This document shows, piece by piece, positions 22,340 to 38,036 of a DNA stretch of 64,000 nucleotides (positions are counted from its first letter, which is position 1; every line of letters begins with the position of its first letter). Origin of the DNA: a bacterium D16-56 (GTDB taxonomy: Bacteria; Bacillota; Clostridia; Lachnospirales; Lachnospiraceae). Below the pieces are notes generated by a model. That model saw only the letters and a list, made by a program, of their open reading frames with translations. It made no database searches and was not told where the DNA came from. A program made the translations under genes and the position numbers. The stretch lies in the NCBI GenBank assembly GCA_003611875.1, contig RAYY01000001.1, forward strand, positions 248,001-312,000. Reading direction: 5' to 3'.

Positions 22340-24457
22340 CTATCTGCTTGTACACACTCCGTCCCCATCCACCTCATACCCGTCAGGGGTTGTGGTATCC
22401 TGGAACAAATGCCCGTCCGTCAGATCAAAATAATACCAGTTTCCGTCTATTTCACGCCATCCGGTAACCATATAGCATTCTGTCTCATCAAAATAATAAC
22501 GGCCTCCCTGTCCGTCAGACCCCCAGCCCACTACGGCTGCAGCCTTCTCATCAAACCAATAGCTCCTTCCGTTAATTTTCTGCCATCCGAATTTCACAAA
22601 ACCATCCTCATAAAATCTCCAGGAACCATCTTTTTCCCCTATCCATCCTCTGTAGTCTGGATCGTCTGCAGCAGAACATTCCGAACAGAACACCCAGTCC
22701 CCTTCCCCCTGCCAATTTTCACACCAACTCTGCTTTTTGATATCTTCCTCACTTCCACTGTAAAAATAAATCCTCTTAGGGCGGGTATCCTTTGCCTCAT
22801 CCAGCTCATCTACAAGGGGCCCTCTGATTTCCTGAATGGAAGACGGCAGAAAAACAACCCTCAAACTCTCACAGTCGTCAAATACCCCCATGCCCAGAAC
22901 CTGAACCGTGTCCGGAATCCGCACCTGCTGGATCTTTGTACAGTCGATAAAAGCAAAGTCGCCAATCGCTGTAACCACACTCCCATTGTACTCTGACGGC
23001 ACCTGAATACAGGCAGCATTCTCTTTGACACAGGCCACCAGCATATATGTTCCGTCCTCATTCAGAGAAAAAATGCCAAAATCATCGTACTCATATTTCT
23101 TATCTTCCGCTGCTTCTGAAGCCGGACTTTCGGTTTCTTCTTCTTTCTCCTCCGAGGAATCCTTTTCTCCGGATCTTTTCTTATCTGCTTCTGTTTCTTC
23201 TTCGGTATCAGTCCTTCCCCTATCAGCCTCTGCGCCAATGTCTTCCTCCTGCACAGAAGCTTTCTCCTCCCTTCTGGATGCCCAAAAACCGATCATCATA
23301 AGGATCAGGAAAAATGCCCCTGCCCCGCAGAGCACCCTAAAAATCAATTTCTGTATCAGCTTTCCAAGTTTTTTTAATCCGCTTAACGATTCCCCGTTTT
23401 TTTTCTTTTCCTCCCCTCCCTTCCCTGCAGGATTTGCAGGTTCTGAAGCTACATTTGTCCTCTCCTCATGATTCCCATTCTCCTTTTGGGCAGGAGACGG
23501 CGCAGTCAGCCTTCTTTTCAGCTCCCGCATATTCTGGATCCGTTTCTCTGCCTTCATCTCCAGGCCGGCCGTAATAGCCTGAATGCCCTGCTGCGGAATA
23601 TCAGCGCCTGAAGGAAAGGCCAGGGGCTCCTTTTTAAATTCACGCTCCATTGCCTCCGGCACTACCTTGCCGGTCAGGCAATAATAAATGGTAGCCGTCA
23701 TGGCATAGACGTCTGTCCATCTGCCCAGAACCTCAGACTCCACATATTGCTCCGGCGCACTGAAATTCCTCTTTACCACTGCCATGGAAACACGTCCGTC
23801 GCTGGTTCTGATGTCCATGGCTGCCCCCATATCCAGAAGCCTTGCCGCCCCGTCAGGCTGCAGCATAATATTATCCGGCGAAATATCCCTGTGGATAAAT
23901 CCATTGTCATGAATCACAGCCAGGCTTTCCAGGATCGGAGACAGCAGGCCCACACATTTTTCATAACTTAAGACCCCATGCCTCAGCAGATAGCTTTTTA
24001 AGGTTTCTCCCTCCACAAAATCCATCACAATATATGCGGTCTGATTTTCCCGAAAAGCATCACTTACACGGACAATGGAAGGCACGGAGTCCAGTCGTGC
24101 CATCTTTCTCGCCTCCTTCATAAAACGGTCAATGCCCTCAGACCACTGGACCCTTTCATTGTCGCCGAAATCCCACTGTACCTGGCTGGAATAGCTGCCG
24201 GTCCGCGCAGCAAATCCAGAAGGAAAATATTCCTTCAGCGCCACCTTCATCTCCAATGTCAGGTCATAGCCTACATAGGTAATGCCAAAGCCTCCCTGCC
24301 CGATCACCTTTCCCACCAGATAACGTCCATGAAGAATGGTGTTCTCCTGTAAGGCGTTGGAGGGCTGTCCGCTTCCCTGATGATAACCGCAGTGAGGACA
24401 CACCAAAACCCCCTGCCCCAGTTCTTCCATGCATTTTGTACATCGGTTCATCTGCAT
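22340..24457 (-). CDS. Membrane Ser/Thr kinase with BspA-type and cell-wall-binding ectodomain
   Basis: This 705-residue protein has a zinc ribbon (C6, C9, C20, C23), a Hanks-type kinase domain (about 44-320) and one membrane helix (about 373-393). A Glu/Lys-rich stalk follows, then a short BspA-like LRR region (FAFIDCTKIQQVRIPDTVQV). Wall-binding repeats end it (WRFYEDGFVKFGWQ, YWFDEKAAAVVGW, WYYFDLTDGHL). In the kinase the glycine loop is GQGGFG (53-58), the lysine is K75 and the catalytic loop is HRDISPDN. The metal motif is DMG (209-211) instead of DFG, a change that often still allows activity. The topology resembles PASTA kinases such as PrkC, but with different outer domains. It is the last gene of the operon; GGAGG lies 7 nt before ATG 24457. 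Confidence 0.88.
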   Translation of the reverse strand: MQMNRCTKCMEELGQGVLVCPHCGYHQGSGQPSNALQENTILHGRYLVGKVIGQGGFGITYVGYDLTLEMKVALKEYFPSGFAARTGSYSSQVQWDFGDNERVQWSEGIDRFMKEARKMARLDSVPSIVRVSDAFRENQTAYIVMDFVEGETLKSYLLRHGVLSYEKCVGLLSPILESLAVIHDNGFIHRDISPDNIMLQPDGAARLLDMGAAMDIRTSDGRVSMAVVKRNFSAPEQYVESEVLGRWTDVYAMTATIYYCLTGKVVPEAMEREFKKEPLAFPSGADIPQQGIQAITAGLEMKAEKRIQNMRELKRRLTAPSPAQKENGNHEERTNVASEPANPAGKGGEEKKKNGESLSGLKKLGKLIQKLIFRVLCGAGAFFLILMMIGFWASRREEKASVQEEDIGAEADRGRTDTEEETEADKKRSGEKDSSEEKEEETESPASEAAEDKKYEYDDFGIFSLNEDGTYMLVACVKENAACIQVPSEYNGSVVTAIGDFAFIDCTKIQQVRIPDTVQVLGMGVFDDCESLRVVFLPSSIQEIRGPLVDELDEAKDTRPKRIYFYSGSEEDIKKQSWCENWQGEGDWVFCSECSAADDPDYRGWIGEKDGSWRFYEDGFVKFGWQKINGRSYWFDEKAAAVVGWGSDGQGGRYYFDETECYMVTGWREIDGNWYYFDLTDGHLFQDTTTPDGYEVDGDGVCTSR

Positions 24458-24472
24458 AGCATTTCCTCCAGA

Positions 24473-27400
24473 TTACTCATAATAATGGATCGTCACACTG
24501 TCTCCAAAGGCATTTTCCCCAAGCTGGCAGTCTGAGCTTATGGTCACGGACTTTAGGCTGCTGCACCCTGAAAACGCATCTGCTTCAATGCTTTTCACAC
24601 TTCTGGGAATGCTTAAGTCCTCCAGAGAGGTACAGTCCCGAAAACAGGAAGGGCTCAGCTTTTTTGTTCCTTCCGAAATCACAACCTTTTTAAGCTGCTC
24701 TGCCTTCCAAAAGGACCGGGTATATACATTTTCTACACTCATGGGCATGATGACCGAAGTGACCTGAGAACCGGTAAAGGCATAGCTGGCAATGGTTTTT
24801 GTTCCCTGGGGAAGCAGACATTCGCCCTCCTTAGCAGTCAAAACCAGCTTGACACTGGTTCCTTCGCTCCCCTTCTCATACAGTATGCCGTCTTCCAACT
24901 GATACTTTTCACTTCCGCTTTCTAAAGTCAATCCCTCCAGCTCTGAAAATGCTCCGGCATAAAGACTCTCTAAGGACGCCGGAAGGGTCACCTCCTTGAT
25001 CGCTGTATTATAGAACGCAAAATACTCCATAGTCTTCAGTCCCTCAGGCAGCTTTACATATTTCAGAGATGTACAATTGAGGAAGGCGTCCTCCCCAATA
25101 GTTTCCAGACCCGGCCCAAATATCACGCCCTCCAGAATCTCGTTGTCCTTGGCAAATTCCTTCTGAATGGCTGTCACCGGAAGTCCTTCTATCTCCTCCG
25201 GAAATACTACCAGCTTTTCCTCTCCCACATATTCCGTCAAAGTGATGCCTGTTTCGTCCTCATTTTTTTCATAAGTAAACTCCGATTCCTTTGCATACTT
25301 GTAAATCTCTATATCCTCCGGAAAGCTTTCACTGACCTTTCCTTTCCACTCTCCTTCGTCAAATTTCCAGGGAACCACCACATAGCTGTCTTCTCCCCGA
25401 TATCCGGTAATGGTAATCTCCCCGTCTGCCACATTGTAGATCAGCCCGTCTTCTGTTGCATATCCTCCCAGAGCCACCAGCGAGGAGCCGTCCTGGTAGA
25501 TCAGAAAGGTATGATCACAGCGATAATCTCCGTCTTCCTTATATTCCCCTGTAATGAACCACAGCCACTTTCCTGTTCCGTTGATTCCCAAAACATTTTC
25601 GCCGCTGTAGATAACCTCTGCCCCTGTTCCGTCTGTCCTGATTTTATGAATCTCGCTGCTGTCTGTGGGACTGTAATAGATCCAGCCGTCGCTGTACAGG
25701 CTGCACCCCTGATAGATCTGGCCTGCCTCCTCCTTTAAAGGATTTTCCTTTGGCGTTCCCTCCAGATCACAGACCACAAGCTGCTCCTTTGACAGAGAAA
25801 ACATATATGCTGTATCGTTCTCAATATACCCGTTGATCAAATAATCCTTGTCATTAAGGAGTTTGGCGTCTTTTCCGTTGAGATAAGCCCGCTTTAGCTG
25901 TGTGCCGTCTAAAGGATGGCCCTCAGGGAAGGTAATATAGTAAAGATATCTTCCGTCAAGGTTGTACCAATAAATATCCTCCTCCAGCAGCTCCTCCTCC
26001 TCTTTTGTCTCCAGATTATACCGGCAAAGGGTATAGAGAAAATCATCTTCATCCCCATTTTCTTTCATGTAGTAGAGCATTTCCTTTTCATTGGAATACT
26101 GCACATATTGAAGCTTCGTATAATCAGGGCTGCTGACAAGTGTCTTAACCTTGCTGCCGTCAAAGCTCATCTCCATAATCGAATCCTGTTCTTCCGGATC
26201 CTCGCTGCTGTCATGAAGGAAATAAACCCGGCTTTTCCCGATATTGATAAATCCTGCATCTTCGTCTACGATCATTCCCTCATTGATGTAAAAAGTCTTA
26301 TCTTCCTTGTCATATTCACATACATACAAGTTCCATTCCATATCCACATAATATTCATACTTATTGGAGATGGCCCCATAGTTGGCTCCTTGGTGCAGGT
26401 TTCCGTTGGTAGTTCCTAACGTCTGGACAGTAGGAAGCCAGGGCTTTGCCGCATAAACCCATGCTCCTGCCCCGCATACAGCCAAAACAGCCGCGGCAGC
26501 CACAGCCCTCCTGATCAGACGCCCTCCCTTGCGAACCGTCTTTTCCAATAAAGCTTTCAGCTCTGCCATGGTCCTGATCCGCTCCTCCGGCTTTACGGCA
26601 AGAGCTTTTGTGAGAATATCCCGGGCTTTCTTGTTCTTCATTCCCTTCAAAGAAAACTGGGAAGGCTTCAGGATCCGCTCCATGGCTTCCGGAATCTCCT
26701 CTCCTGTACTGCAGCGGTAAATCACCGCAGCCATGGCATACACATCCGTCCAGCCGCCTACAGCTCCATCCTCCATATATTGCTCCGGGGCGCTGTAGCC
26801 CTTCTTTACAATACTTTCGGATGTGCCGGAATGCTCCACTGCCATATCCACTGCTGCCCCAAAGTCAAGAAGCTTTACCTTCACATCCCGCCCGCTTCCC
26901 AAAACCATCAGATTATCCGGACTAATATCCCGGTGTATCAAGCCCTTGGTATGCATAACCCCCAGGCTGTCCATAATGGGAAGAAGCATGTCCACACAGG
27001 TGCAAAAGTCAATCTTGCCATTCTGTTTCAAATACTGCTGCAAGGTAATTCCCTCTGCAAAATCCATGACAATATAAGCTGTCTGATTCTCCTGGAAGCA
27101 GTCTCTTACCCGCACAATCCCTGACAATTCATCCAGCTTTGCCATTTTTCTTGCCTCACTGGAAAAACGCTCGATACACTCCTTCCACTTCTGGTATTGG
27201 GTCTGGGAAAAGGTCCACTGAAGCACATTGGAAACCGAGTGATCTCTTGACGCAAGACTTTTGGGACAATACTCCTTAATCGCAACCTTAAGCTCCAGCT
27301 TCAGATCATATCCCACATAAGTGATCCCAAAGCCTCCCTGCCCCATGACCCGCCCTACCAGATATCTCCCACATAAAATGGTATTGATCTTCAATGCATT

Positions 27401-27502
27401 GAGGGGCTGTGTATATTCCGCTGCCCCATAACCGCAGTGCCGGCAAAGAGAATCTCCTTTTTCTATCTCCTTCATACAATTAATACAACGATACACTTCC
27501 AT
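24473..27502 (-). CDS. Membrane Ser/Thr kinase with large beta-propeller/BspA ectodomain
   Basis: This protein has 1009 residues. The N-terminal zinc ribbon (C6, C9, C20, C23) and kinase domain (about 46-320) closely match the neighbouring kinase. It has GQGGFG (54-59), K76, HRDISPDN and an intact DFG (213-215). A membrane helix follows at about 333-351. The outer part (about 370-720) has recurring Y-rich strands such as YLYYITFPEG and GWIYYSPTDSSEIHKI, suggesting a DUF5050-like beta-propeller. The last ~280 residues are BspA-type LRRs (EDAFLNCTSLKYVKLPEGL and similar units). It probably senses an extracellular or wall ligand. It starts 3 bp after the small PP2C gene, giving a kinase-phosphatase pair. 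Confidence 0.88.
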   Translation of the reverse strand: MEVYRCINCMKEIEKGDSLCRHCGYGAAEYTQPLNALKINTILCGRYLVGRVMGQGGFGITYVGYDLKLELKVAIKEYCPKSLASRDHSVSNVLQWTFSQTQYQKWKECIERFSSEARKMAKLDELSGIVRVRDCFQENQTAYIVMDFAEGITLQQYLKQNGKIDFCTCVDMLLPIMDSLGVMHTKGLIHRDISPDNLMVLGSGRDVKVKLLDFGAAVDMAVEHSGTSESIVKKGYSAPEQYMEDGAVGGWTDVYAMAAVIYRCSTGEEIPEAMERILKPSQFSLKGMKNKKARDILTKALAVKPEERIRTMAELKALLEKTVRKGGRLIRRAVAAAAVLAVCGAGAWVYAAKPWLPTVQTLGTTNGNLHQGANYGAISNKYEYYVDMEWNLYVCEYDKEDKTFYINEGMIVDEDAGFINIGKSRVYFLHDSSEDPEEQDSIMEMSFDGSKVKTLVSSPDYTKLQYVQYSNEKEMLYYMKENGDEDDFLYTLCRYNLETKEEEELLEEDIYWYNLDGRYLYYITFPEGHPLDGTQLKRAYLNGKDAKLLNDKDYLINGYIENDTAYMFSLSKEQLVVCDLEGTPKENPLKEEAGQIYQGCSLYSDGWIYYSPTDSSEIHKIRTDGTGAEVIYSGENVLGINGTGKWLWFITGEYKEDGDYRCDHTFLIYQDGSSLVALGGYATEDGLIYNVADGEITITGYRGEDSYVVVPWKFDEGEWKGKVSESFPEDIEIYKYAKESEFTYEKNEDETGITLTEYVGEEKLVVFPEEIEGLPVTAIQKEFAKDNEILEGVIFGPGLETIGEDAFLNCTSLKYVKLPEGLKTMEYFAFYNTAIKEVTLPASLESLYAGAFSELEGLTLESGSEKYQLEDGILYEKGSEGTSVKLVLTAKEGECLLPQGTKTIASYAFTGSQVTSVIMPMSVENVYTRSFWKAEQLKKVVISEGTKKLSPSCFRDCTSLEDLSIPRSVKSIEADAFSGCSSLKSVTISSDCQLGENAFGDSVTIHYYE

Positions 27503-27505
27503 TCC

Positions 27506-28234
27506 CTATTCCTCCCCTATGGTAAAAATTGCCGCCGCCGAGTAATTATCCGAATTTTCCGGCGCCTGTTCCTTTAAAAGCTGCTCCATTTTGAAAAGCC
27601 ATTTTTCCGGATCAGGCGAACCGGCCAGCGTCTCCTCCATCCTTTTCTCCGGCACATATTCCCAAAATCCGTCTGTACAGAGAAGAAACGCATGAAATTC
27701 CTCTGACAAAGGCATGGGTTCTGAAATCTCCGGTTCATGGCTGTCACTTCCCAATGCCCTTAAAATCCGGTTCCGATCCGGATGAAAACGGATCTCATCC
27801 TCTGTAATCATATTCATAAAGACTGCCATCTGAGGCACACTATGATCCAGGGTCCGAGAAACCAGCCTGGCATTTTGAAAATGATAAAGCCGCGAGTCTC
27901 CCACATGCCCCCAAAGGGCCGTTCCCTGCCGAATAATCAGGCTGACAAGAGTGGTCATAGCCTGACCGTCCTCCTTCTGACTTGCTGCAACGGCCTCATT
28001 TGACCAGCGGAATGCCTGGGCAAGCTCCGCCTGTGTTCTGCAGAGTCCCCTTTCAAAACAGGAAAGGATGGTCTCTGCTGCTGCCAAAGAAGCCTCCCTT
28101 CCGCCTCCATGGGCGCCCAGACCGTCAGCCACAGCAGCAAAAAGCCCGGAAGGCCCCTTCTTTATCAGAACCATATCCTCATTGACCTTCCGGCCTCCGG
28201 GACAGGTCAAAACAGCATAGGCATTCTTGATCAT
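27506..28234 (-). CDS. PP2C-family Ser/Thr protein phosphatase, cytoplasmic
   Basis: This 242-residue soluble PPM/PP2C phosphatase has metal-binding acidic residues in GRKVNEDMVLI and AAVADGLGAHGGG, a further motif in LWGHVGDSRLYHF, and FLLCTDGFWE near the C-terminus. These are motifs I, II, V/VI and VIII of the family. PP2C enzymes remove phosphate from Ser/Thr residues and usually oppose a co-encoded kinase, here the kinase whose start lies 3 bp downstream. It has no membrane helix, unlike the second PP2C of the operon. Confidence 0.92.
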   Translation of the reverse strand: MIKNAYAVLTCPGGRKVNEDMVLIKKGPSGLFAAVADGLGAHGGGREASLAAAETILSCFERGLCRTQAELAQAFRWSNEAVAASQKEDGQAMTTLVSLIIRQGTALWGHVGDSRLYHFQNARLVSRTLDHSVPQMAVFMNMITEDEIRFHPDRNRILRALGSDSHEPEISEPMPLSEEFHAFLLCTDGFWEYVPEKRMEETLAGSPDPEKWLFKMEQLLKEQAPENSDNYSAAAIFTIGEE

Positions 28235-28279
28235 ATCTTGCTCCTTTCTTGTTCATAGCTGTCTGATATTCTACGTTTC

Positions 28280-29668
28280 TTATGTCAGAATTACAAATTC
28301 CTCACGCTGGGAGCCTAAGCAGACCCGATCCCCCGGATTCAGCCAGCAGGCCTGCCCTGCATTTAACCGAGTCTGATTCACATAGGTTCCATAGCTTGAG
28401 CCCAGATCCCGGATCCCCAATCGTCCCTTTTCAAAAAATATCTCACAATGGATTTTGCTGACCCCGGATGCCCCTGACGGAAACACCAGATCATTTTTCA
28501 CAGCATCCCGCCCGATCCGAATCCGGTCCTTTATGGCAAACCGACGGCCTGCAAAAGATCCCTGAACCCCCTGCAGACGATAATTCGCCGCCAAAACCGG
28601 ACAACCCCCGGCTCCTGCCGCCGCAGCCGTAAAAGCCGCCGTGCTCCCAAATACGGCCTGCCCCTGGCCTTGCCCCATATCCCGCCTCTCGCCAAGGACC
28701 GCCCCTTCCAAAAAGCCGTGGTTTAAGGCCAGGGTCAGGCGTTCCTCATTGCAGCGGACGGCAATCTCCACAACCTGATTTAACCCTTGCCTGAGGATCC
28801 CATAAAGAACAGCAAGAATCAGGACCCAGACTGCCATACTGCCCAAAAGTTCCCCTCTGCTGCAGAAAATATCCCACCAGGCATGGCTGAACACACTGAA
28901 TGCAAAAGCCGCCAGAAACACAGGATGAAACAAATGCTTTGCCGAAAAAGGTTCCCTTCCCTTTGCCCAGGCCAGTGCCCCTCCTGTAATGGCTGCCCAG
29001 GCCACATGTCCTCCCGGAGCAAAAAATGCCCTCATGACCACATTTCCGAAATCCCAGTTTGCCAGTATAATCCCATACCCGGCGCTTTCTATGGCGGCAA
29101 AGCTTGCCCCTACGGATGCTCCCACCAGCATTCCGGTCAAAATATATCTGCACTCCTTTTTCCGCAGCCAGATCACGGCCGCCGCCACCTTTGCCGTTTC
29201 CTCGATGACACCTACTGCGTGATAATGCACCAGCAGACTTCCCGACGTGTCAAATTCCGACAAAAACAGTGTAATCACCAGGGACAAAATGCCGCCAATA
29301 AAGAACATCAAAAGCACGGAGGCAAAGGAGATATTTCTGGGAATATTCATCTCCCAGAAAAAGCACATGACAACAATCGGCACCAGATAGCTTCCCATGG
29401 TAAAGATCAGCGGCAGAAACAAAGAGTTGCCAAAGCAGATCCCTGCCGCCAAAAGAAGGATCCCTGCCAGAAAGATCCGGGCAAACAGATATGGCTTCAG
29501 CCATTGAGAAAGCATGGCCTCCTCCGCCGGCGTAGTGAGAGGGGTTCCAGCCAGAAAAAGCCTTGCATGCTCCTTCGGCGTATGGCGCCGAAGCACATCG
29601 CTGAATATATCCCTAAGCCCCAGCTTTTTCTGTTCTGCCTTCTGAAAAAATGTCTTATTGTCGCTCAT
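28280..29668 (-). CDS. PrsW-type intramembrane metalloprotease fused to an FHA domain
   Basis: The 462-residue protein has about eight membrane helices in residues 45-300 with the PrsW signatures. These are EETAKVAAAVIWL (the EExxK motif), FAAIESAGYG (FxxxE) and HVAWAAITGGALAW with a conserved His. A linker then leads to a C-terminal FHA domain (about 375-462), with RIGRDAVKNDLVFP, GVSKIHCEIFFEKG and LGSSYGTYVNQTRL. PrsW proteases cleave anti-sigma factors; FHA domains bind phosphothreonine. The fusion suggests that proteolysis is directed to, or controlled by, targets phosphorylated by the co-encoded kinases; that link is inference. It starts 3 bp after the trypsin-FHA stop. Confidence 0.85.
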   Translation of the reverse strand: MSDNKTFFQKAEQKKLGLRDIFSDVLRRHTPKEHARLFLAGTPLTTPAEEAMLSQWLKPYLFARIFLAGILLLAAGICFGNSLFLPLIFTMGSYLVPIVVMCFFWEMNIPRNISFASVLLMFFIGGILSLVITLFLSEFDTSGSLLVHYHAVGVIEETAKVAAAVIWLRKKECRYILTGMLVGASVGASFAAIESAGYGIILANWDFGNVVMRAFFAPGGHVAWAAITGGALAWAKGREPFSAKHLFHPVFLAAFAFSVFSHAWWDIFCSRGELLGSMAVWVLILAVLYGILRQGLNQVVEIAVRCNEERLTLALNHGFLEGAVLGERRDMGQGQGQAVFGSTAAFTAAAAGAGGCPVLAANYRLQGVQGSFAGRRFAIKDRIRIGRDAVKNDLVFPSGASGVSKIHCEIFFEKGRLGIRDLGSSYGTYVNQTRLNAGQACWLNPGDRVCLGSQREEFVILT

Positions 29669-29671
29669 ATC

Positions 29672-31306
29672 TTAGACCACTCCTCCCTTTTGGGTAATCT
29701 GAAACTCCTCATTGGCAGATCCCAGACGAATCCGGTCCCCTATTGCCAGAGGATAAGAGCAGTTAGGAATCAGCTTATTTCCGTTTACAAACGTTCCATA
29801 GGTAGAGCCGGCATCCAGGATCATCACCGTCCCTCCCTGGGCGCGGATCACACAATGCATTCCGCTGATTCCCTTTGTATCAGCCGGATACACAAAATCA
29901 CATCTTTGAGGATCACGCCCCATGCGGATCTCTGCCCCAATCTGAAAACGCCGGCCTGCAAACACGCCTGTCATTCCCTGAAGCCGGACGTTTGATAAAG
30001 AAACGCTTTCGCCCGGCGCCGGGACTGATGCTTCAGAAGGAATCGGCGTCTTAGAAAGGGCTGGCGTCTTCCTCTTGCTTACTGCAATCAGCACTGCCAG
30101 TCCTATCAGAACCGCAGCACCTGCACCCACCAGGATTTTTACAGGAACGCTTCCTGTCGCCTTGTGATCCTCCTTCCCTTGGCCGCCTGGGACGTCATCT
30201 CCTGAAACAGCTTTGCCATCCTCCTGCCCGCTGCCGCCTTGGTTTCCCGGCCCATCATCTTCCCTGTTTTTCCCGTTTTCTTTCGTATCGTCACCCTTTT
30301 CAGGGTTTTTGCCGCCATTCTCCCCGCTATCCTGACTGCCATCTTCCCCGCCGTCCTGACCGTCCTTTTCTCCGCCGTCCTGACCGCCTTCCTCCTCGTC
30401 TTCTGCCAACGTATAGGAGATTCCCAGCTCATCCATAATTTCCATGGCATAATCAATATAGATGGACACACTGTATTCCATTTCCAGGTCCCCAAATCCA
30501 TAGGTGTTGATTCCGATCACGCTTCCGTCCTCTAAGATCAAGGGACCTCCCGAATTGCCGTGATTAATATGGGCATGGTGAACAATACAGTTTGTGTTTC
30601 CCAGCCATTCAAGGGAAAGGCATCTGGAAATATCTCCTCCTGCCACAGACACGGCTTCCACAGTGCCCTTGATTTTTTCGATTATGGCGTCGCCGTCATA
30701 TACAATACTTGCCATATCTGCGCTGCCGGGATAGCCGATAGTAAAGATCTTTCTTCCTACATCATAGGGATCTACTCTTCTAAGAGGCATCGTTTCCACA
30801 TTTTCAACCGGCTCCTTTGTCTTTAAAATGGCCACATCCGGGTATTGATGCTCAGCATAGAGCACCTCACACTCCACCACATTGCCTAATTCCCAATCTG
30901 TCAAAACCCTTTTATAAATCCTGCCGTCTTCATCCTGAGCATATTCTCCAGATCCATCAAGCTCCTCTCCCTCCTCCACCATTATCCACTCGTACTTATA
31001 GAACGTCTGATCATCCAGAAGAATAAAAACACGGGCGTCCTTATAATCAAAGGAACCGCTGGAGGTCACTACATGCCAGTTGGTGACAAACGTATCTGCA
31101 TCCTTTCCCGGCGCTCCCACGCCGAATCCTGTTCCCGTGCTTAACGAATACCCTTCCGGCGTTTTCGCCACAGTGAAAATCCGCACCACCCCATACCGGG
31201 CGTCCGAAACCTTCTTCCGGTCATCTTCCCCCCATACCGGAATGGCCTCCATCATAAAAAGCGCCAGGAGTATTCCCCATAAAACAAGCTTTTTTCTATT
31301 TCTCAT
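29672..31306 (-). CDS. Trypsin-like serine protease with membrane helix and FHA domain
   Basis: The 544-residue product has a signal peptide (LVLWGILLALFMMEAIPVWG) and an extracellular trypsin-like domain. The catalytic residues are visible: His in FVTNWHVVTSS, Asp in QYPDVAILKT and Ser in HGNSGGPLILEDG. An Asp/Gly/Lys-rich linker follows, then one membrane helix (VKILVGAGAAVLIGLAVLIA) and a cytoplasmic C-terminal FHA domain (EIRMGRDPQRCDFVYP, DAGSTYGTFVNGNKL). The arrangement could couple proteolysis outside the membrane to phosphothreonine binding inside. ATG 31306 has GAGGAA upstream and opens the signal peptide; ATG 31378, overlapping the previous stop as TAATG, is an alternative start. 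Confidence 0.85.
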   Translation of the reverse strand: MRNRKKLVLWGILLALFMMEAIPVWGEDDRKKVSDARYGVVRIFTVAKTPEGYSLSTGTGFGVGAPGKDADTFVTNWHVVTSSGSFDYKDARVFILLDDQTFYKYEWIMVEEGEELDGSGEYAQDEDGRIYKRVLTDWELGNVVECEVLYAEHQYPDVAILKTKEPVENVETMPLRRVDPYDVGRKIFTIGYPGSADMASIVYDGDAIIEKIKGTVEAVSVAGGDISRCLSLEWLGNTNCIVHHAHINHGNSGGPLILEDGSVIGINTYGFGDLEMEYSVSIYIDYAMEIMDELGISYTLAEDEEEGGQDGGEKDGQDGGEDGSQDSGENGGKNPEKGDDTKENGKNREDDGPGNQGGSGQEDGKAVSGDDVPGGQGKEDHKATGSVPVKILVGAGAAVLIGLAVLIAVSKRKTPALSKTPIPSEASVPAPGESVSLSNVRLQGMTGVFAGRRFQIGAEIRMGRDPQRCDFVYPADTKGISGMHCVIRAQGGTVMILDAGSTYGTFVNGNKLIPNCSYPLAIGDRIRLGSANEEFQITQKGGVV

Positions 31307-31379
31307 GTCCACTTCCTCATAATCCTCTGCCATTCTTTGGTTTTCAAGCTGCTGTACCCCGCAAGCATCCGGCTTCACA

Positions 31380-32840
31380 TTAAAAATCCAAAATCACACA
31401 GGTAAAATTATCCTGTTTGGCATTCCCTGCCGCAACAACCTGCTTTTCCATTAAAGCCGCGGCCTCTGCAGCATTCCTTGTACCTTCCAGAATGTCCATA
31501 ATCTCCTTTTCCGAAATCGTATCAAAAATACCGTCTGACATTAAAAGCACCTTGTCCCCCTGTCTGACCTCTACCGGGCGCAGGCTTCCGTCTATGTACT
31601 TCAGCTCCCCCATTCCCAGAAAGCTTACCAGGCGATCCTTCTGCGGATCGGTATTGACCCTGGAAAAGCTGATGTTTTTATTGACAGCCTCCCCGATAAG
31701 CTGCCGCTTGTAAATATGTTCACGGTTTATCTGTATCAGATGATGGCTGCAGTACAGATAGATCCGGCTGTCCCCCACTGCAGCCCAATGAAACCGGCCG
31801 TTGCCTGCAAGAATGGCCAGCAGCGTGGCTCCGCTCTTATAAATCTGGTCAGATCCCAGCATTTTCAGAACCTGTTCATTGGCAATGCTTAACATTTCAT
31901 ACAAAGGATTGTCAGAAGCAGAAGGGGAGATCTGATTTCCTGCCTGGAACATTCCCATTACAGCCTGCTGGCTTACCCTTTCACTGTCTGCCAAGCCTCC
32001 CATGCCGTCTGATACCACTGCCAGAAGCCCTGTCTTAATACGGTTCACTCCAAAGGTATCTTCCTGGTTTTTCCTGCGTCCAATGTTATGGACCATACCC
32101 ACAGATCCATTGGATACATCCGGAAGAACCGGCAGCGAGACCTCCGATACAGGATCATCGTTCCCTGAAAAATGCTGTTTTCCACTGTCCGCAAAGGAAT
32201 CTGCCAAGACAGAAGAAAGGTCTGTAACGGTCTTCTGAGCCGGATCTATTTCTTTTTTTCGTCCTTCCTTTTTCTTCCCCAAGGCCAGAATCCCGGCAGC
32301 ACCTGCTGCTGTCAGCAACACTCCTGCTCCAAAGCCTGCTGCTAATGTAAGAAGCGCGTCCTTAGAAAGCCATGATCCTGACTGGTCTTTGTCCTTATCC
32401 TCCTCATCGCCATCCGTGTCCGACTTTTTCTGAATGCCATCAGCATCTTTCTTGTCTTTGTTCTCTGTCCCTGATTCAGACGGCTTCTCATCAGACAGCT
32501 CCGGCGAATTTCCCTCTGTATCATTTGTGTCAGTGGAGATTCCTTCTGTATCCGGGATTTCCGCCGGATTTTTGTCTTCTTTTTCTTCCCCGGCTTCCTC
32601 CAGGTTCCCGCCTTCCCCTGGGATCCCCTTTTCTTGTACCCTTCCGGCTCCCTCCTGCTGTTCTCCTCCTTCTGACATTCCTGCATTTTCTGACATTCTT
32701 ACATTTCCGGGGCTGGTATTTTCCAGCAATGTCATGGCCCCCGGAGCCAGGAGAGCCCCTTGGGAAGCCATAGCCAAAGCAGTCCCTGACCATGCCGTCA
32801 CAGACACCCACAACATCCATCTCTTAAACAACTGCCTCAT
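31380..32840 (-). CDS. Membrane-anchored PP2C phosphatase
   Basis: The protein has 486 residues. The N-terminus is a signal or anchor helix (WVSVTAWSGTALAMASQGAL). About 120 residues rich in Glu, Asp, Lys and Ser follow, then a second helix (about 165-190, LLTLAAGFGAGVLLTAAGAA). The PP2C domain is at about 245-486, with RRKNQEDTFGV, VVSDGMGGLADSE, AAVGDSRIYLY and VLLMSDGIFDTI, and is predicted to lie in the cytoplasm. It is one of two phosphatases in the operon, and being membrane-bound it would act near the kinases and FHA membrane proteins. It starts 3 bp after the VWA-FHA stop. Confidence 0.88.
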   Translation of the reverse strand: MRQLFKRWMLWVSVTAWSGTALAMASQGALLAPGAMTLLENTSPGNVRMSENAGMSEGGEQQEGAGRVQEKGIPGEGGNLEEAGEEKEDKNPAEIPDTEGISTDTNDTEGNSPELSDEKPSESGTENKDKKDADGIQKKSDTDGDEEDKDKDQSGSWLSKDALLTLAAGFGAGVLLTAAGAAGILALGKKKEGRKKEIDPAQKTVTDLSSVLADSFADSGKQHFSGNDDPVSEVSLPVLPDVSNGSVGMVHNIGRRKNQEDTFGVNRIKTGLLAVVSDGMGGLADSERVSQQAVMGMFQAGNQISPSASDNPLYEMLSIANEQVLKMLGSDQIYKSGATLLAILAGNGRFHWAAVGDSRIYLYCSHHLIQINREHIYKRQLIGEAVNKNISFSRVNTDPQKDRLVSFLGMGELKYIDGSLRPVEVRQGDKVLLMSDGIFDTISEKEIMDILEGTRNAAEAAALMEKQVVAAGNAKQDNFTCVILDF

Positions 32841-32843
32841 TGA

Positions 32844-34496
32844 TCAATCCTCCCAATATAACCGGTATTCGTAGCTTCCTGCTCTTAGGCTGTCTCCGGG
32901 TCTGACCGCTACCCTGCCCAGATGGTTGATTACCACTCCGTTAACCGATGTGCCGTTTTTAGACTGCATATCCCACACATAGACGCTTTTTCCGTCCCAA
33001 AGCATCACAAAATGAACACCGGACAGCTTTGTGTCCCGGGAATCTAAAATAATCTGTGCGTTTCCGTTTCTCCCTGCAGTCATCTCATATCCCTTCACCA
33101 GCTCCACAACACAAGTCTTGTTCTGCTGCCCGATTGCAGCCAGACGGACCGAAAGTCTGGGAAGGGAACGAAATGCCTCCTCACGGGCCCGCTGTTTCTC
33201 CATTTCCTGCTGCCTGCGTTTTTCTTCCTCCTGCGCCTGCTGCCTGCGGGCCTGCTCCTGTCGTTCTCTTTCCTGCTGTTCCTGCCGCTGCTTCTCCTCC
33301 TGGCGTTTTTTCTCCTCCTCCTGGCAAAGCCTCTCCTCCTCCCGGCGTTTTTTCTCCTCTTGTTTTCTTTTTGCCCCTATCACCCCAACAGCGCAGAGAA
33401 TCAGCGCCAGTGCTGCAGCAGCGCCTGCAATAGCCGGAAAATGCCAGGCATTCTTGTCTTCCTCCTCAGAAGGCTTTGGATCCAAAGGATCCTCCTCCGA
33501 TGATTCCACTATGTGCTGGGTCTGCTTTTCGTCGGTTTCCTCCGGCGCATCCTCCCTAAGCCTCAGATTCCTGGTTTGAATTTCAAAGCTGTCCTCATAG
33601 CTTCGCCCGGCCTGATTTTTATAGATCACGGTCAGTCTGCAGGTATCTTTCTCCGTCTTCCTTATCCCGGTCAGATCTGCCCGTATCCGAAGGGTTTCTC
33701 CCAGACAATTCAAAATTTCCTGCCCCATCTCCTCACCAGTCATGGAAATCGGCTTAGAGCCGCTGTCATCGGATTTCGGCAGATGGACGCCGCCTGCAGA
33801 GCTTCTGGCAAAGCTTCCCAGCTCCTTTGCCTGTTCATAATCTGCCGCTGACAAGACAAGCGCAGCCGTGTACACCGGAATATGGGATTGAGATACCATC
33901 TCATAGGCTTCCCTCCAGGTAGAACCATCCCCCTGGTCGTCACATCCGTCAGAGATCACCACAAGGGCCCGCATGGAATGAACCCCCGGCTCCTGCCGGA
34001 GAAACCTCAGCCCATGTATGATTCCGCTGTACAGATCCGTATCCTCTCCCGTGTAAGCCAGACTGTCGATTTCCGCCTTCCCTTCTTCTCTGGTATTAAG
34101 AAAACCAGAATCCGTAATCTGATTTCCCATTTTTCCAATCACAAGACTGTCCTGTTCGGAAAGCCCGCTGTTAATGGCAGAAAGCACCTCCTTTGCCTGG
34201 TCCATTCTCCCTTTCATGGAGCCGGATACATCCACCAGACAGTAGACCGTCATTGGAAGCTTCTCCTGACCGGCCCTGGCCACGTCATGAATCGACAGCA
34301 TTTGGTCTCCCAGCAATACCTGAACCTGGTCGGCGCTGTCCGTCTCGCCAGGTATGGTACAGATGATTTCCACCTGATCTTCCGTTTCCTGATATACATT
34401 ATTAATAAATGCCTGATTATCCGCAGCCAGTCCCAGTCCGGCGCCTAGATTCCACACCATCAGAAAGCTGAGGATCCTTCCTGCCATTTTCTTCAT
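32844..34496 (-). CDS. VWA-domain membrane protein with coiled coil and FHA domain
   Basis: The 550-residue protein has a signal peptide (to about residue 24). An extracellular von Willebrand A domain follows (about 80-270) with a complete MIDAS start, CLVDVSGSMKG (D89, S91, S93), and VVISDGCDDQGDG. After an acidic linker comes a membrane helix (about 350-375), then a highly charged Glu/Lys/Arg/Gln coiled coil (about 377-440) and a C-terminal FHA domain (YEMTAGRNGNAQIILDS, MQSKNGTSVNGVVI). VWA domains bind protein ligands through a metal ion, so this may be an adhesion or assembly sensor. Its ATG overlaps the kinase-FHA stop as ATGA. Confidence 0.87.
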   Translation of the reverse strand: MKKMAGRILSFLMVWNLGAGLGLAADNQAFINNVYQETEDQVEIICTIPGETDSADQVQVLLGDQMLSIHDVARAGQEKLPMTVYCLVDVSGSMKGRMDQAKEVLSAINSGLSEQDSLVIGKMGNQITDSGFLNTREEGKAEIDSLAYTGEDTDLYSGIIHGLRFLRQEPGVHSMRALVVISDGCDDQGDGSTWREAYEMVSQSHIPVYTAALVLSAADYEQAKELGSFARSSAGGVHLPKSDDSGSKPISMTGEEMGQEILNCLGETLRIRADLTGIRKTEKDTCRLTVIYKNQAGRSYEDSFEIQTRNLRLREDAPEETDEKQTQHIVESSEEDPLDPKPSEEEDKNAWHFPAIAGAAAALALILCAVGVIGAKRKQEEKKRREEERLCQEEEKKRQEEKQRQEQQERERQEQARRQQAQEEEKRRQQEMEKQRAREEAFRSLPRLSVRLAAIGQQNKTCVVELVKGYEMTAGRNGNAQIILDSRDTKLSGVHFVMLWDGKSVYVWDMQSKNGTSVNGVVINHLGRVAVRPGDSLRAGSYEYRLYWED

Positions 34497-35866
34497 AAAC
34501 CATCCCCCTCTATACGATAATTTTCATTGCCAAAGCTTATGGTATTTCCCCGTTTTAGCTGATACCATTTTCCTGGTTCAATACGGCGGCCCGAAACCAT
34601 GGTTCCATAGGTAGAATTTTCATCCTGTATAAAAAGCTTTCCATGTTGGTCACACCACAGGCAGAAATGCCGCCTGCTGATTCCAGGAGTATCGGCCGGA
34701 TAAATGATTGTACATTGACTGTCTCTCCCAAACGTAATGCTGGTATTGGGAGAAACAAAAAACCGCTGTCCCTGATATCGTCCATAAGCACACTGAAGCC
34801 AAAATCCTGCCCCTGCCTGCTCCGGCTGTCTGACCGCTCTATACTGCTTACTGCCTGCTCTGTATGGATTGCCGTCTGTCCTGCGGCACTGATCGGAAGA
34901 AAACACATCCTCTCCCGGAAACATTTTCTCTGCCATAGCCTGTGCGCTTTGAAAACGCTCCGAATCCCGCAGAGCCATGCCTTTCATAATAGCATCCGTT
35001 ACATGCTCCGGCAAATCCGGGCAATACTTTTCTATGGGTATGGTCTCGTCTCTTTTCATTCGGTCAGGCGCTTTAGGCGGCCGCTGTCCGCTTAGGGCGT
35101 GGTAAATCGTCACACTGAGAGAATAAATGTCTGTCCAGGGTCCCTGGTTTCCATTGGAAAAATATTGCTCGACAGGAGCATATACCTGCTTTAAAATCGT
35201 AGTCAGTCCCTGACCGTTGTTAAAACATCTGACCGAACCAAAATCAATTAATTTTGCGTCTGTCACACTTGTCAGGAAAATATTGTCCGGGCTTATGTCC
35301 CTGTGAATCAGCCCCTGACTGTGAAGAATACGAAGAATATAAAGAAGTCTTTTGACATAACCTGACATCATGGACCAGCTCAGCCTGCCGTTCTGGTTTA
35401 TGTAGGTCTTTAAATCAACCCCGGTAAGATACTCCATAGAATAATACACGGTATTATTTTCTTCCATCAACTGATAGACATTCATAATAGAAGGTTCATG
35501 GCGGAAATTATAGAGTACCAGGGCTTCCTCCTTAAACCGCTGCTTCAGCTTTTCAAAATACTCCTCCTGGCCCTTTACCGGCGTAATATCCCCGGACGCC
35601 TGTGTCCTCTGCACATCCTGCCTTGGAAACAGCTCCTTTACGATTACCCGCCGTTTTTCCAGACAGTCCCATGCCAGATAAGTAATGCCAAAGCCTCCGT
35701 TTCCGATCACCCTTCCAAGATAATACCGGGATGCCAGCATATACCGGTCCGGCAGAACACCTGCCGGACGGCTTGATGCTTCCTGAATGCTCTTATGGCA
35801 ATAAGTACATACACCGTTTTTCAAGATGCCAAGCAGGCAGCTGGTACATAATGACTGCAAATCCAT
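34493..35866 (-). CDS. Cytoplasmic Ser/Thr kinase with C-terminal FHA domain
   Basis: This 457-residue protein has no membrane helix. It has a zinc ribbon (C7, C10, C20, C23), a kinase domain (about 47-310) with GNGGFG (55-60), K77, HRDISPDN and DFG (208-210), and an FHA domain (about 355-455: ITFGRDSQCTIIYP, DENSTYGTMVSGRR). Kinase plus FHA in one chain lets the enzyme bind phosphorylated partners or its own phosphorylated sites. It shares the APEQY-type substrate segment (APVEQYF) with the other two kinases of the operon, so all three look like one paralogous group. It precedes the VWA gene with an ATGA overlap. Confidence 0.9.
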   Translation of the reverse strand: MDLQSLCTSCLLGILKNGVCTYCHKSIQEASSRPAGVLPDRYMLASRYYLGRVIGNGGFGITYLAWDCLEKRRVIVKELFPRQDVQRTQASGDITPVKGQEEYFEKLKQRFKEEALVLYNFRHEPSIMNVYQLMEENNTVYYSMEYLTGVDLKTYINQNGRLSWSMMSGYVKRLLYILRILHSQGLIHRDISPDNIFLTSVTDAKLIDFGSVRCFNNGQGLTTILKQVYAPVEQYFSNGNQGPWTDIYSLSVTIYHALSGQRPPKAPDRMKRDETIPIEKYCPDLPEHVTDAIMKGMALRDSERFQSAQAMAEKMFPGEDVFSSDQCRRTDGNPYRAGSKQYRAVRQPEQAGAGFWLQCAYGRYQGQRFFVSPNTSITFGRDSQCTIIYPADTPGISRRHFCLWCDQHGKLFIQDENSTYGTMVSGRRIEPGKWYQLKRGNTISFGNENYRIEGDGL

Positions 35867-35935
35867 ATTTTGTCACCTCATATATTTTGTCTCCTGGCAA
35901 CGCTGTATTGCATACTGCTGTTTGATACCGCTGCA

Positions 35936-36664
35936 TCACTCGCTCCAATTAAACTTTTCTCCGCACAAGGGAATAAAGATCATCCTGGAGGTTCCTATTG
36001 TCACAATGTCATAAGGATGAAGCTCGGTAGGCACCATCACCATTTTTCCGTTTACCCGGACAATGTTTCTTCCGTCAGAGGGACCGAAAAAGAATATTTT
36101 CTCTGTATCGTCATATGCAATCAGGGCATGCTTTTCCCGGCTGATCTGCTTATCGCCCCGAATGCAGATATCCATATGCTCCGCACGGCCAATATGATTG
36201 TAACCGCTTCGAATCCGGTAATCACTTCCCCTGTCAGGGCCTTCTATGCACACCAGCCATCCTACCACCGGCGTAAAGCCTGCTACCATGCCGGGATTAT
36301 GAGGCATGGTCTGGTCATTATAATTATCCACCCCCGGAACCGATGAATCCACAAAACGCATCGTCTCACCGCCACCGCCAAATCCTTGGGTAGGCGCCTT
36401 GGTTCCGGTCATTCCCCCTGTGTCCATGGAACCGCCGCCGATGGGCTGTGTTTCCCCAATATGGTCAAACCCATTGCCGAACATTCCGCCGCCGATGGGT
36501 TCGGTAGCCCCTGCCTGCTGTTCAAAGCCTCCTCCAAAGCTGCCTCCCACCGGTTCCGTAGCGCCGTAGCCCCCTGCATTCTGGCCCTCTGCTGCACACA
36601 TGGGACAGGTATGGTTGGTATCCCCGTCATAAAAATGTCCCTTGGCGCATATTTTCATATTCAT
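35936..36664 (-). CDS. FHA-domain protein with zinc ribbon and three TxP[IV] repeats
   Basis: The 242-residue protein starts MNMKICAKGHFY and has a Cys/His cluster (C6, H10, C20, C23). A Gly-rich region with three 18-residue repeats follows; each carries a threonine in ATEPVGG (T36), ATEPIGG (T54) or ETQPIGG (T72). A C-terminal FHA domain (about 150-242) has YNHIGRAEHMDICIRG, ISREKHALI and RNIVRVNGKM. FHA domains typically read pThr with a preference at +3; all three threonines have V or I at +3. This makes the protein a likely multi-phosphorylated adaptor. ATG 36664 has GGAGG 7 nt upstream; the ATG at 36670 is too close. Confidence 0.85.
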   Translation of the reverse strand: MNMKICAKGHFYDGDTNHTCPMCAAEGQNAGGYGATEPVGGSFGGGFEQQAGATEPIGGGMFGNGFDHIGETQPIGGGSMDTGGMTGTKAPTQGFGGGGETMRFVDSSVPGVDNYNDQTMPHNPGMVAGFTPVVGWLVCIEGPDRGSDYRIRSGYNHIGRAEHMDICIRGDKQISREKHALIAYDDTEKIFFFGPSDGRNIVRVNGKMVMVPTELHPYDIVTIGTSRMIFIPLCGEKFNWSE

Positions 36665-36704
36665 CGTCATTCCTCCTTGTATGAGTAAATTTTATTTCAT
36701 CACT

Positions 36705-38036
36705 CTATAAATACCGGATCACAAAAGTATTTTTCTCTGACCCAAGACAAAACATATCGCCGTTCTTCACCGGAACCGGTCGATGATCCTGAAGCTTTCC
36801 GTAATTCGTCAAATAGGTTCCATAAGAAGATCCGCAATCCATAATCATAAGAACCCCTTTTTCATTCCAGTAAAGCTTGCAGTGATTTCTGCTGATCCCC
36901 TTTGTATCCTCCGGAAAACGGATTCCGCAGAAAGCTTCCCGCCCAATACTGACGCCCTGACTTCCAATCGGGTAGGTTCTTCCCTGCATAATCCCTGAAG
37001 TACCGGTCAGGCTTGCCCTGGCCTGATCCGGCGCAGCCGGGATCGGGCCTGATGGAACGGGGCCTGGCGGGATCGGAACAGGCCGAACGGGATCCGGAGG
37101 GATTGGAGCAGACCGAACGGAATCCGGCAGTATCGGATCCGTGGGTGCTGATTTTGACGAAGAACCTGTCTTATTTTTGACTATAACCACACCCACAAGA
37201 GCAGCGCCCACAGCTCCTAACAAATAGAGCCATTTTTTATCAGCCTCCAAACCATCATCCCCAGGTATATCGGTCTTGCTTTCTCCTGTTGTCTCCGGCT
37301 CGATCATCGTTTCTATTTCGGTCCCTGTTTCGTTTCCCCTTTCCCTCCTTCTTTCACGTCCTGATGCCCCCGAAGTTTCCTCCGCTTCTTTGGTCTCCCC
37401 GGAACTGCCCTGTCCGTAAAAAGCATTTACATCTGTATGGAAAGAGATCAGCTCCCCCGAATCGATTATCAATCCCACTAATCCATTCTGATCATCCATC
37501 ACAAACAAAGGAAAACAAAAAATTTCTTGAACGTTTTCCCCTTCTGATGCAAACTCCCAGCCTAGTAAAGTAAGCTGCTCCGACTTCCCGGCCTGCGCTC
37601 CCGTGATCCTAAGCTTACGGCTTGCCATCGTTACCTCTGTGTCTAAATACAGCAGGTCTGCAGTCTGCCCCTGAAATGCACCGGCCAGTCCCAGGATCTT
37701 TGTTTCCGGCGGAACCTGATCCCGAAAAGCAAACATGCCCAGCCCATATTCCGAAAATCCCCTTCCCGTAAAATCAACCTCATAGCTGTGTCCGTCATCA
37801 TTCCAAATGTGGTACGTCTCTGCACTGCTGTCCACCACATCCATGGTAGTTATTGCATAATAACTGCCATTATTTTCAATTACCACCGCTACCCCGAAAG
37901 TAACCATTTCCGAAGCATTCTCCCCCACGATATAAAACACATAATCTTCCTGTGCTGCCAGAGAACAAATCCCTATAACCATCATAAAAAATCCTGTCAG
38001 CAGCCATCTTGCAAATCTTTTTCCCCTTTTCTTCAT
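36705..38036 (-). CDS. Membrane protein with degenerate trypsin-like domain and FHA domain
   Basis: The 443-residue protein begins MKKRGKRFARWLLTGF with a signal peptide. The outer domain parallels the trypsin-FHA protein of this operon: TFGVAVVIENNGSYYAITTM matches its GTGFGVGAP..FVTNW stretch. The catalytic His position reads MDVVDSS instead of WHVVTSS, and the GNSGGP serine loop is replaced by LFVMDDQNGLVGLII, so it is probably an inactive, ligand-binding homologue. A membrane helix (YLLGAVGAALVGVVIV) follows, then a Pro-rich linker with repeated P[IV]PP units and an FHA domain (VSIGREAFCGIRFP, DCGSSYGTYLTNYG). AAAGGAG precedes ATG 38036. It is the first gene of the operon. Confidence 0.82.
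   Translation of the reverse strand: MKKRGKRFARWLLTGFFMMVIGICSLAAQEDYVFYIVGENASEMVTFGVAVVIENNGSYYAITTMDVVDSSAETYHIWNDDGHSYEVDFTGRGFSEYGLGMFAFRDQVPPETKILGLAGAFQGQTADLLYLDTEVTMASRKLRITGAQAGKSEQLTLLGWEFASEGENVQEIFCFPLFVMDDQNGLVGLIIDSGELISFHTDVNAFYGQGSSGETKEAEETSGASGRERRRERGNETGTEIETMIEPETTGESKTDIPGDDGLEADKKWLYLLGAVGAALVGVVIVKNKTGSSSKSAPTDPILPDSVRSAPIPPDPVRPVPIPPGPVPSGPIPAAPDQARASLTGTSGIMQGRTYPIGSQGVSIGREAFCGIRFPEDTKGISRNHCKLYWNEKGVLMIMDCGSSYGTYLTNYGKLQDHRPVPVKNGDMFCLGSEKNTFVIRYL

Follow-up and report, generated by a model that had tools for sequence, protein, structure and literature searches.

What do Hanks-type kinases control in commensal Clostridia? The question is posed, in a directly testable form, by a ten-gene operon at positions 22340-38036 of a 64,000-nucleotide stretch of DNA, here called the window, from the Lachnospiraceae bacterium D16-56 (GenBank assembly GCA_003611875.1, contig RAYY01000001.1, positions 248,001 to 312,000 of the forward strand). 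Judged from literature listings, gut Clostridia seem to have received little attention with regard to phosphothreonine signalling, and the operon offers a compact and recurrent circuit with a candidate substrate (gene 2), readers, and putative outputs in the form of two kinds of membrane protease. We read it as a stand-alone, membrane-centred phosphothreonine signalling module composed of writers (kinases), a hub, erasers (PP2C phosphatases) and proteases tethered to FHA domains, and assign this reading a probability of roughly 0.58. The features of the operon, starting from the promoter, are:

38158-38188, minus strand: promoter-like TTGACA-N19-TATAAT in the sequence (TTGACA 38183-38188, TATAAT 38158-38163)
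38164-38172, minus strand: G9 tract in the promoter spacer, a candidate phase-variable element seen in the sequence
36705-38036, minus strand: gene 1, N-terminal transmembrane or signal segment, degenerate HtrA-fold ectodomain (putative pseudo-S1), transmembrane segment, FHA with YGT (50.7 bits)
35936-36670, minus strand: gene 2, small soluble FHA protein (candidate hub) with a CxxGHxYD..CPxC knuckle, a disordered linker carrying TEPV, TEPI and TQPI, Thr121, and FHA
34493-35866, minus strand: gene 3, zinc-ribbon Ser/Thr kinase-FHA fusion without transmembrane segment (Pkinase 105.3, FHA 58.4 bits)
32844-34496, minus strand: gene 4, signal peptide (by eye), borderline VWA, transmembrane segment, FHA with canonical NGT (43.6 bits)
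31380-32840, minus strand: gene 5, PP2C phosphatase with transmembrane anchor (PP2C_2 45.6 bits)
29672-31378, minus strand: gene 6, S1 (HtrA-like) protease with His and GNSGG motifs, transmembrane segment, FHA with YGT; uncertain GTG start (Trypsin_2 62.8, FHA 59.1 bits)
28280-29668, minus strand: gene 7, PrsW intramembrane metalloprotease with EExxK kept and a C-terminal FHA with YGT (PrsW 67, FHA 61.2 bits)
27506-28234, minus strand: gene 8, soluble PP2C phosphatase (PP2C_2 57.8 bits)
24473-27502, minus strand: gene 9, zinc-ribbon kinase, transmembrane segment, ectodomain of DUF5050 and BspA-type leucine-rich repeats (LRR) (Pkinase 104.2, LRR_5 134.1, DUF5050 72.2 bits)
22340-24457, minus strand: gene 10, zinc-ribbon kinase, transmembrane segment, ectodomain of LRR and choline/wall-binding repeats (Pkinase 110.8, Choline_bind_3 42.5, LRR_5 33.2 bits)
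22294-22330, minus strand: terminator-like inverted repeat 3' of gene 10, found by eye in the sequence

The ten open reading frames lie end to end on the minus strand from 38036 to 22340, with intergenic distances from gene 1 to gene 10 of 34, 69, -4, 3, 1, 3, 45, 3 and 15 bp, and by this arrangement the ten-gene operon is real. Domain calls on the ten proteins at the Pfam gathering cut-offs give Pkinase three times, PP2C_2 twice, FHA six times, and Trypsin_2 and PrsW once each. Gene 9 also has LRR_5 and DUF5050, and gene 10 has LRR_5 and choline-binding repeats; the VWA_2 match of gene 4 scores 26.9 bits, just below its cut-off of 27.0. In both gene 9 and gene 10 the zinc ribbon has a sub-threshold Pfam score, and CxxC..CxxC is visible by eye in all three kinases. 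An earlier note, made from the sequence alone, had described a one-strand run of ten genes with three zinc-ribbon kinases, two PP2C phosphatases and six FHA proteins, carrying VWA, BspA-repeat, wall-binding, trypsin-like and PrsW modules, and this inventory holds, with the VWA 0.1 bit short. The tight spacing that it reported is likewise present, the gaps being -4 to 69 bp and not 0-75 bp. The start of the operon is marked by the promoter-like site and by two terminator-like hairpins found by scan upstream of it (38269-38226 and 38326-38295). The promoter motifs proposed at 38158-38188 are in the sequence and do not appear in the list from our scan, which covered spacers of 16-18 only. The end is marked by the inverted repeat and, just past it, a new promoter-like site for the next gene (22291-22263, by scan). 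The terminator proposed there corresponds to a real 10-bp inverted repeat (22330-22321 paired with 22303-22294, by eye), for which the scan gave no call, the loop being long and a clean T run lacking. The density of kinase and FHA genes is above chance: the whole 5.54-Mb genome has 9 Pkinase matches at E <= 1e-8 and 12 FHA matches at E <= 1e-3, and the operon accounts for 3 and 5 of these, respectively. The nearest flanking genes look housekeeping- or transport-like by eye.

Related loci were gathered with PrsW-FHA queries, whose FHA part also pulled in S1-FHA loci, and with an alignment of the hub, and all fractions given below are conditional on these searches. The PrsW-FHA alignment search returned 303 relatives, and the 79 best loci were retained; the gene-2 alignment, counting contractile-type loci, matched in 31 of the 391 genomes searched within the class. 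After removal of 7 duplicates, 122 loci including the window, each with about 10 kb of flank covered on either side, were annotated by a script that picked the genes itself, without a gene caller. L011-L015, L059 and L060 had been left out before this tally (own-genome regions, with L059 an EssC locus recruited by FHA similarity). Runs were too short in 11 of the 122 loci, and removal of 8 contractile-type loci (of 10 so labelled) from the remaining 111 left 103. The tallies count loci and not species, and the window and a second locus of the same genome, L201, are both included.

Kinase, PP2C and FHA genes were found in a single run of at least three core genes in 92 of the 103 non-contractile loci, and it is because writers, erasers and readers share one operon and recur together in this way that we favour a signalling module. 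Two or more PP2C matches are present in 76 of the 103 loci, and an S1-, PrsW- or VWA-FHA protein in 94. By component, S1-FHA was found in 74 loci, a gene-2-like hub in 75, PrsW-FHA in 33, VWA-FHA in 22, kinase-FHA in 22 and a protein of the gene-1 type in 8. The clusters thus form a modular family across the Clostridia (record titles name Lachnospiraceae, Oscillospiraceae, Christensenella and other Clostridia), with a simpler form consisting of a small FHA protein, two PP2C phosphatases, an S1-transmembrane-FHA protein and kinases, to which PrsW-FHA and VWA-FHA are additions. Gene order is shuffled between related loci. Distribution within the family is patchy: a full-length S1-FHA match with E < 1e-110 occurs in 9 of 299 sampled genomes of the window's family, and three more (G227, G012, G207) have matches nearly as long but weaker, two of them on EssC contigs. 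We found no description of the cluster in the literature, as judged with partial coverage from titles and abstract openings among the matches listed. The proposal of a trans-envelope kinase, PP2C and FHA circuit with protease and VWA modules is retained, and its supposed uniqueness has to be given up in view of the 103 related loci.

The closest relative found is in [Clostridium] asparagiforme DSM 15981 (L091), where identity to the window reaches 72% for the hub, 79% for the PP2C domain of gene 5 and 64-70% for the kinase domains of genes 9 and 10. Genes 4, 6 and 7 are 54-58% identical (gene 6 over 309 of 568 residues) and gene 1 is 34% identical; the ectodomains of genes 9 and 10 show 51% and 25% identity, each over half its length. 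The genes flanking the operon had no match in any of the 7 loci compared. These identities and the unshared flanks indicate that, at the sequence level, the cytosolic core is constant and that the sensor ectodomains and the genomic address vary.

The protein encoded by gene 2 looks like the hub of the module, with a zinc knuckle, a putatively disordered linker rich in T-x-P-[V/I/A/L] and a conserved Thr before the FHA domain. The linkers of 48 hubs with less than 60% identity contain 71 T-x-P-[VIAL] motifs, compared with 7.8 in shuffled sequences (maximum 19 in 500 shuffles). A Thr at positions -18 to -12 before the FHA core is present in 44 of the 48 non-redundant hubs, compared with a shuffle mean of 21.4 (maximum 32), which places a Thr motif directly N-terminal to the FHA domain as in GarA and OdhI. 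A stricter Thr-motif pattern, tried before this looser window, was found in 42 of 57 module hubs with a recognised FHA core (19 further hubs had none) and in 0 of 9 contractile-type hubs. Across 31 hubs hand-picked from 85, conservation of Thr121 of the window's hub is at least 90%, and the gene-2 linker is disordered in the AlphaFold2 (AF2) model. The FHA switches GarA and OdhI are similar in being small FHA proteins whose FHA domain is preceded by a Thr motif; gene 2 differs in adding the zinc knuckle and a linker of about 100 residues with repeated TxP[VI].

The phosphothreonine site of FHA domains is formed by Gly, Arg, Ser and His residues. In a family alignment each of the four is kept in 38 of 38 PrsW-FHA, 72-77 of 77 S1-FHA and 19-22 of 22 VWA-FHA proteins; the hub Ser column of the alignment is one residue off, and the hub Ser count is therefore void. 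In the NGT motif, Tyr takes the place of Asn in 29 of 38 PrsW-FHA, 64 of 77 S1-FHA, 15 of 22 kinase-FHA, 8 of 8 gene-1-type and 23 of 28 small transmembrane FHA proteins, and Asn is retained in 20 of 22 VWA-FHA proteins. For the gene-7 FHA, five solved relatives were found, GarA and OdhI among them, and the three shown aligned to it (including these two) all have Asn.

As for what the FHA domains tether, gene 6 keeps the S1 motifs NWHVV and GNSGG, and the His and GNSGG motifs are both retained in 65 of the 77 S1-FHA proteins. In gene 7, the EExxK motif and further Glu and His residues of PrsW are present, with E156, E157, K160, E194, H221 and H262 invariant across 5 aligned sequences. Passages of PMC3482391 concern PrsW-dependent toxin export, with which gene 7 shares an N-terminal PrsW and a variable C-terminal domain; the C-terminal domain of gene 7 is an FHA reader and not a toxin. 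Gene 1 carries no catalytic triad motif in its sequence, and residues 26-201 of its AF2 model align with HTRA1 (8se8) with a Z score of 13.7, a root-mean-square deviation of 3.1 over 156 aligned residues and 10% identity, HTRA1 being the sole entry covering the gene-1 ectodomain among the 50 structure matches listed; the predicted local distance difference test (pLDDT) score of the domain block is 70-87. Because the modelled fold is HtrA-like and the triad motif is missing, gene 1 is probably a catalytically dead pseudo-HtrA. The two trypsin-like members supposed at the outset thus become one with catalytic motifs, gene 6, and one apparently dead. The fusions of PrsW and of trypsin-like domains to FHA, which the earlier note linked to no described system, are present and belong to a recurrent family, and S1-transmembrane-FHA proteins also lie beside EssC.

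The usual catalytic loop of Ser/Thr kinases is HRDxKPxN, with a Lys. In all three operon kinases the loop reads HRDISPDN, a sequence found exactly in 123 of 186 cluster kinases (for example that at 24473-27502 in the window). HRD and D[F/M]G are present in all three, gene 10 having DMG, and a VxxK Lys is seen by eye; the ATP-binding Lys, the HRD Asp and the DFG Asp are thus in place in each kinase.

These observations lead us to propose the following scheme, the steps of which are predicted from domain content and motifs. The kinases of genes 9 and 10, with their variable outer sensors, and the cytosolic, FHA-linked kinase of gene 3 would phosphorylate Thr residues of the hub linker (TEPV, TEPI, TQPI and Thr121), and probably partner proteins as well. 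The PP2C phosphatases of genes 5 and 8 would remove the phosphothreonine marks, and the S1 protease, the pseudo-protease, PrsW and the VWA protein would read them through their tethered FHA domains, so that phosphorylation could assemble or release modules for proteolysis and binding at the envelope. Phosphorylated Thr121 may dock on the hub's own FHA domain, giving an off state similar to that of GarA and OdhI, and the promoter's G tract may toggle the operon on and off in sub-populations. A phosphorylation-switched assembly of membrane proteases is the predicted mode of action, which we consider likely. More tentatively, and less likely than not, the clusters might represent a previously undescribed class of secretion-independent trans-envelope phospho-relay of the Clostridia, with a multi-site TxP hub written by kinases that carry interchangeable sensors, a distinct Tyr-type FHA subclass tethering HtrA, pseudo-HtrA and PrsW so that envelope proteolysis would be gated by Thr phosphorylation, and poly-G phase variation of the whole circuit. 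Hanks kinase, PP2C and FHA signalling is a known kind of system; what is new is the recurrent architecture with FHA-tethered proteases and a TxP hub, and in particular the candidate gene-2 hub, the Tyr-type tethered FHA domains, the predicted gene-1 pseudo-HtrA and the promoter G9 tract.

Several points weigh against a signalling module of this kind. No substrate or output gene was identified among the data examined. All three kinases lack the catalytic-loop Lys, and their activity needs proof. The substitution of Tyr for Asn in 4 of the 6 operon FHA domains could weaken phosphopeptide binding, and only 14 of 22 kinase-FHA proteins retain the phosphothreonine-site His. For the hub, the -18 to -12 window was chosen after inspection of the hub sequences, 2 of 3 non-redundant contractile-type hubs also carry a Thr in it, and the hand-picked 31-hub alignment excludes the 4 hubs without Thr in the 48-hub count. 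The AF2 model of the hub shows no docking of Thr121, with pLDDT below 50 in that region. The best match of gene 3 in L091 is just 34% identical.

The relationship to type VII secretion systems (T7SS) deserves the closest comparison. In passages of PMC11217815, T7SS subtypes are described as having kinases, PPM phosphatases, FHA proteins and VWA proteins (TscD, TscF and TscE in T7SSc; TseD, TseF and TseJ in T7SSe), and the operon resembles these Bacillota clusters in having a transmembrane Ser/Thr kinase, a soluble PPM (PP2C) phosphatase, an FHA protein and a VWA protein. It differs in lacking an EssC-type ATPase and WXG100 proteins, and in adding FHA-tethered S1, pseudo-S1 and PrsW proteins, the TxP-linker hub and extra kinases with BspA, DUF5050 and wall-binding ectodomains. 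The parts of PMC11217815 consulted contain no mention of trypsin or of S1-FHA partners of T7SS, and mention a protease only as the mycosin MycP and in one reference title. No EssC/TsxC FtsK-type ATPase is among the ten operon proteins (one is present elsewhere in the genome), and all 5 WXG100 matches of the genome are on contig C121; the operon was accordingly rejected as a T7SS cluster (T7SSb-j). With models seeded from the window's genome, EssC and WXG100 were found in 0 of the 122 tallied loci within the flanks covered. The earlier claim that secretion genes are absent is borne out by this count, but the operon is not unrelated to secretion, since S1-transmembrane-FHA, PP2C, kinase and VWA-transmembrane-FHA genes also occur beside EssC in T7SS loci of the same family. 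Our reading of the sequences is that the parts share ancestry with T7SS-linked sets and that the link is not obligatory.

One could therefore suppose that the operon is a detached regulator, derived from the kinase, PP2C, S1-FHA and VWA-FHA set of a T7SS and acting in trans on the EssC system of C121. That system (L011, G000:C121) has VWA-transmembrane-FHA, FHA and FHA-EssC readers, a LytTR-like regulator and five WXG100 matches, and no kinase or PP2C match in C121:34000-70990. Among 7 EssC-linked regions, chosen for S1- or FHA-type matches on the same contig, 5 have S1-transmembrane-FHA and 5 have adjacent PP2C and kinase genes. Kinases, PPM phosphatases and FHA proteins are published components of T7SS subtypes (PMC11217815, in the passages cited above), and a single 31-kb contig of genome G095 carries both the cluster and EssC/WXG100 genes. 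However, none of the tallied loci has EssC or WXG100, and the 5 EssC-linked S1-FHA proteins form one clade apart from 78 others with a Shimodaira-Hasegawa-like approximate likelihood ratio (SH-aLRT) of 100, in a quick tree with long branches in which 2 of the 5 EssC-linked rows have odd letter composition. EssC was above the cut-off in 65 of 299 genomes overall and in 3 of 10 hand-picked cluster-bearing genomes (p = 0.46 by Fisher's exact test; 4 of 10 if the EssC fragment at a contig end in G095, less than 3 bits short of the cut-off, is counted), and a genome-level association between cluster and EssC was rejected. We consider such a detached regulator unlikely. Next in rank, and also improbable, is a sigma-factor circuit in which the FHA-steered S1 and PrsW proteases cleave a distant anti-sigma factor, giving an envelope-stress response gated by Thr phosphorylation. 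PrsW is the site-1 protease of the anti-sigma factor RsiW in Bacillus subtilis according to passages of PMC3482391, and an HtrA-like and an intramembrane protease share the operon, but the ten genes include no anti-sigma/sigma pair, a sigma-like gene was noticed in one relative only (L049) when flank proteins were viewed by eye without a search, and no PrsW-FHA was seen in 70 of the 103 loci, although contig ends truncate some of these. An anti-phage defence of the kinase-kinase-phosphatase or PD-T4-6 type is very improbable: the three kinases match PADLOC kinase models (mad6, PD-T4-6), the PP2C domains of genes 5 and 8 match PDC-M21C and the S1 domain of gene 6 matches RT-Protease_XI, yet these are single-domain matches that make up no system, genes 1, 2 and 7 have no PADLOC match, and the closest flanking genes are of the kinds named above, more distant defence genes not having been searched for. 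The defence reading was set aside on the single-domain nature of the PADLOC matches. Least probable of all is that the genes are co-transcribed and functionally unrelated, as the shuffled gene order of the relatives might suggest, since 92 of 103 loci from diverse Clostridia have the same functional set and none of the 7 loci checked shares the window's flanks.

The stand-alone phosphothreonine module can also be set beside other known systems. The operon resembles the TerY-P triad in combining VWA (0.1 bit below the cut-off), zinc-ribbon kinase and PP2C, as it does the kinase-PP2C-VWA neighbourhoods of conflict systems (PMC7159879, in part), but it has no NTPase among the ten proteins, its VWA is predicted to be extracellular and is fused to FHA, and TerD is missing from the genome. 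A search for TerD (PF02342) in the window's genome and 14 control genomes gave no match in the former and matches in 2 of the latter, in agreement with the earlier note on the absence of Ter genes, and membership in a Ter system was rejected for this reason. The actinobacterial pknAB-pstP-fhaAB operon likewise joins two kinases, a transmembrane PP2C and two FHA proteins; the present operon lacks a RodA or PBP gene and has proteases and VWA instead. The PpkA-PppA-Fha pathway of type VI secretion, touched on in passages of PMC11217815, follows the same kinase, PP2C and FHA logic, whereas the operon includes no secretion apparatus; other, possibly contractile clusters of the genome carry FHA and PP2C.

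The 19-nt spacer of the operon promoter ends at its 3' side in G9, directly before TATAAT, a homopolymer between the -35 and -10 elements as expected of a slipped-strand promoter. In a pattern scan for 8 G within 6 nt 5' of TATAAT, this promoter was the sole site in the genome. G tracts as such are not rare, with 98 overlapping 8-G windows in 40 separate tracts by our own count, and because they are this common we regard phase variation of the operon by slipped-strand mispairing as suggested only. In the 2.08 Mb of tallied loci there are 6 G/C tracts of at least 8, of which 3 (window, L043, L092) fall within the 600-bp cluster start regions (61.8 kb in total), compared with 0.18 expected (Poisson 0.0008, post hoc). 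The G8 tract of L092 precedes TATAAT and that of L043 precedes TATATT (by eye); no G/C tract of 8 or more is present at the remaining listed cluster starts.

Several further observations concern the surroundings of the clusters. A family of proteins of about 360-410 residues (L169:5018-6100 and relatives) has 31 matches in 30 loci, 23 of them convergent 3' of the cluster and 20 of those at 37-265 bp. Two members scanned had no Pfam match, and a search without positive control found none in the window's genome. At L048:11698-18950, dynamin-like GTPases, one of them fused to FHA, and a metallopeptidase-like gene adjoin a cluster (by eye). The window's genome contains a second kinase, PP2C and hub-FHA cluster without S1 or PrsW members (L201, G000:C114:75001-91979), in which one short kinase gene overlaps the hub gene. 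It also contains two possibly contractile or tail-like clusters with FHA and two PP2C genes (L014, G000:C190:12000-26000; L200, G000:C124:251001-270000), with no kinase in the stretch read; a hub-like FHA is present in L014, and L200 encodes a DUF4280 protein, its relative L189 giving a sub-threshold Hcp-like match. Shared parts thus connect stand-alone circuits, T7SS-linked sets and contractile-like systems within one lineage. FHA and PP2C sets similar to those of L014 and L200 are also found in L183, L187-L190, L192, L194 and L196.

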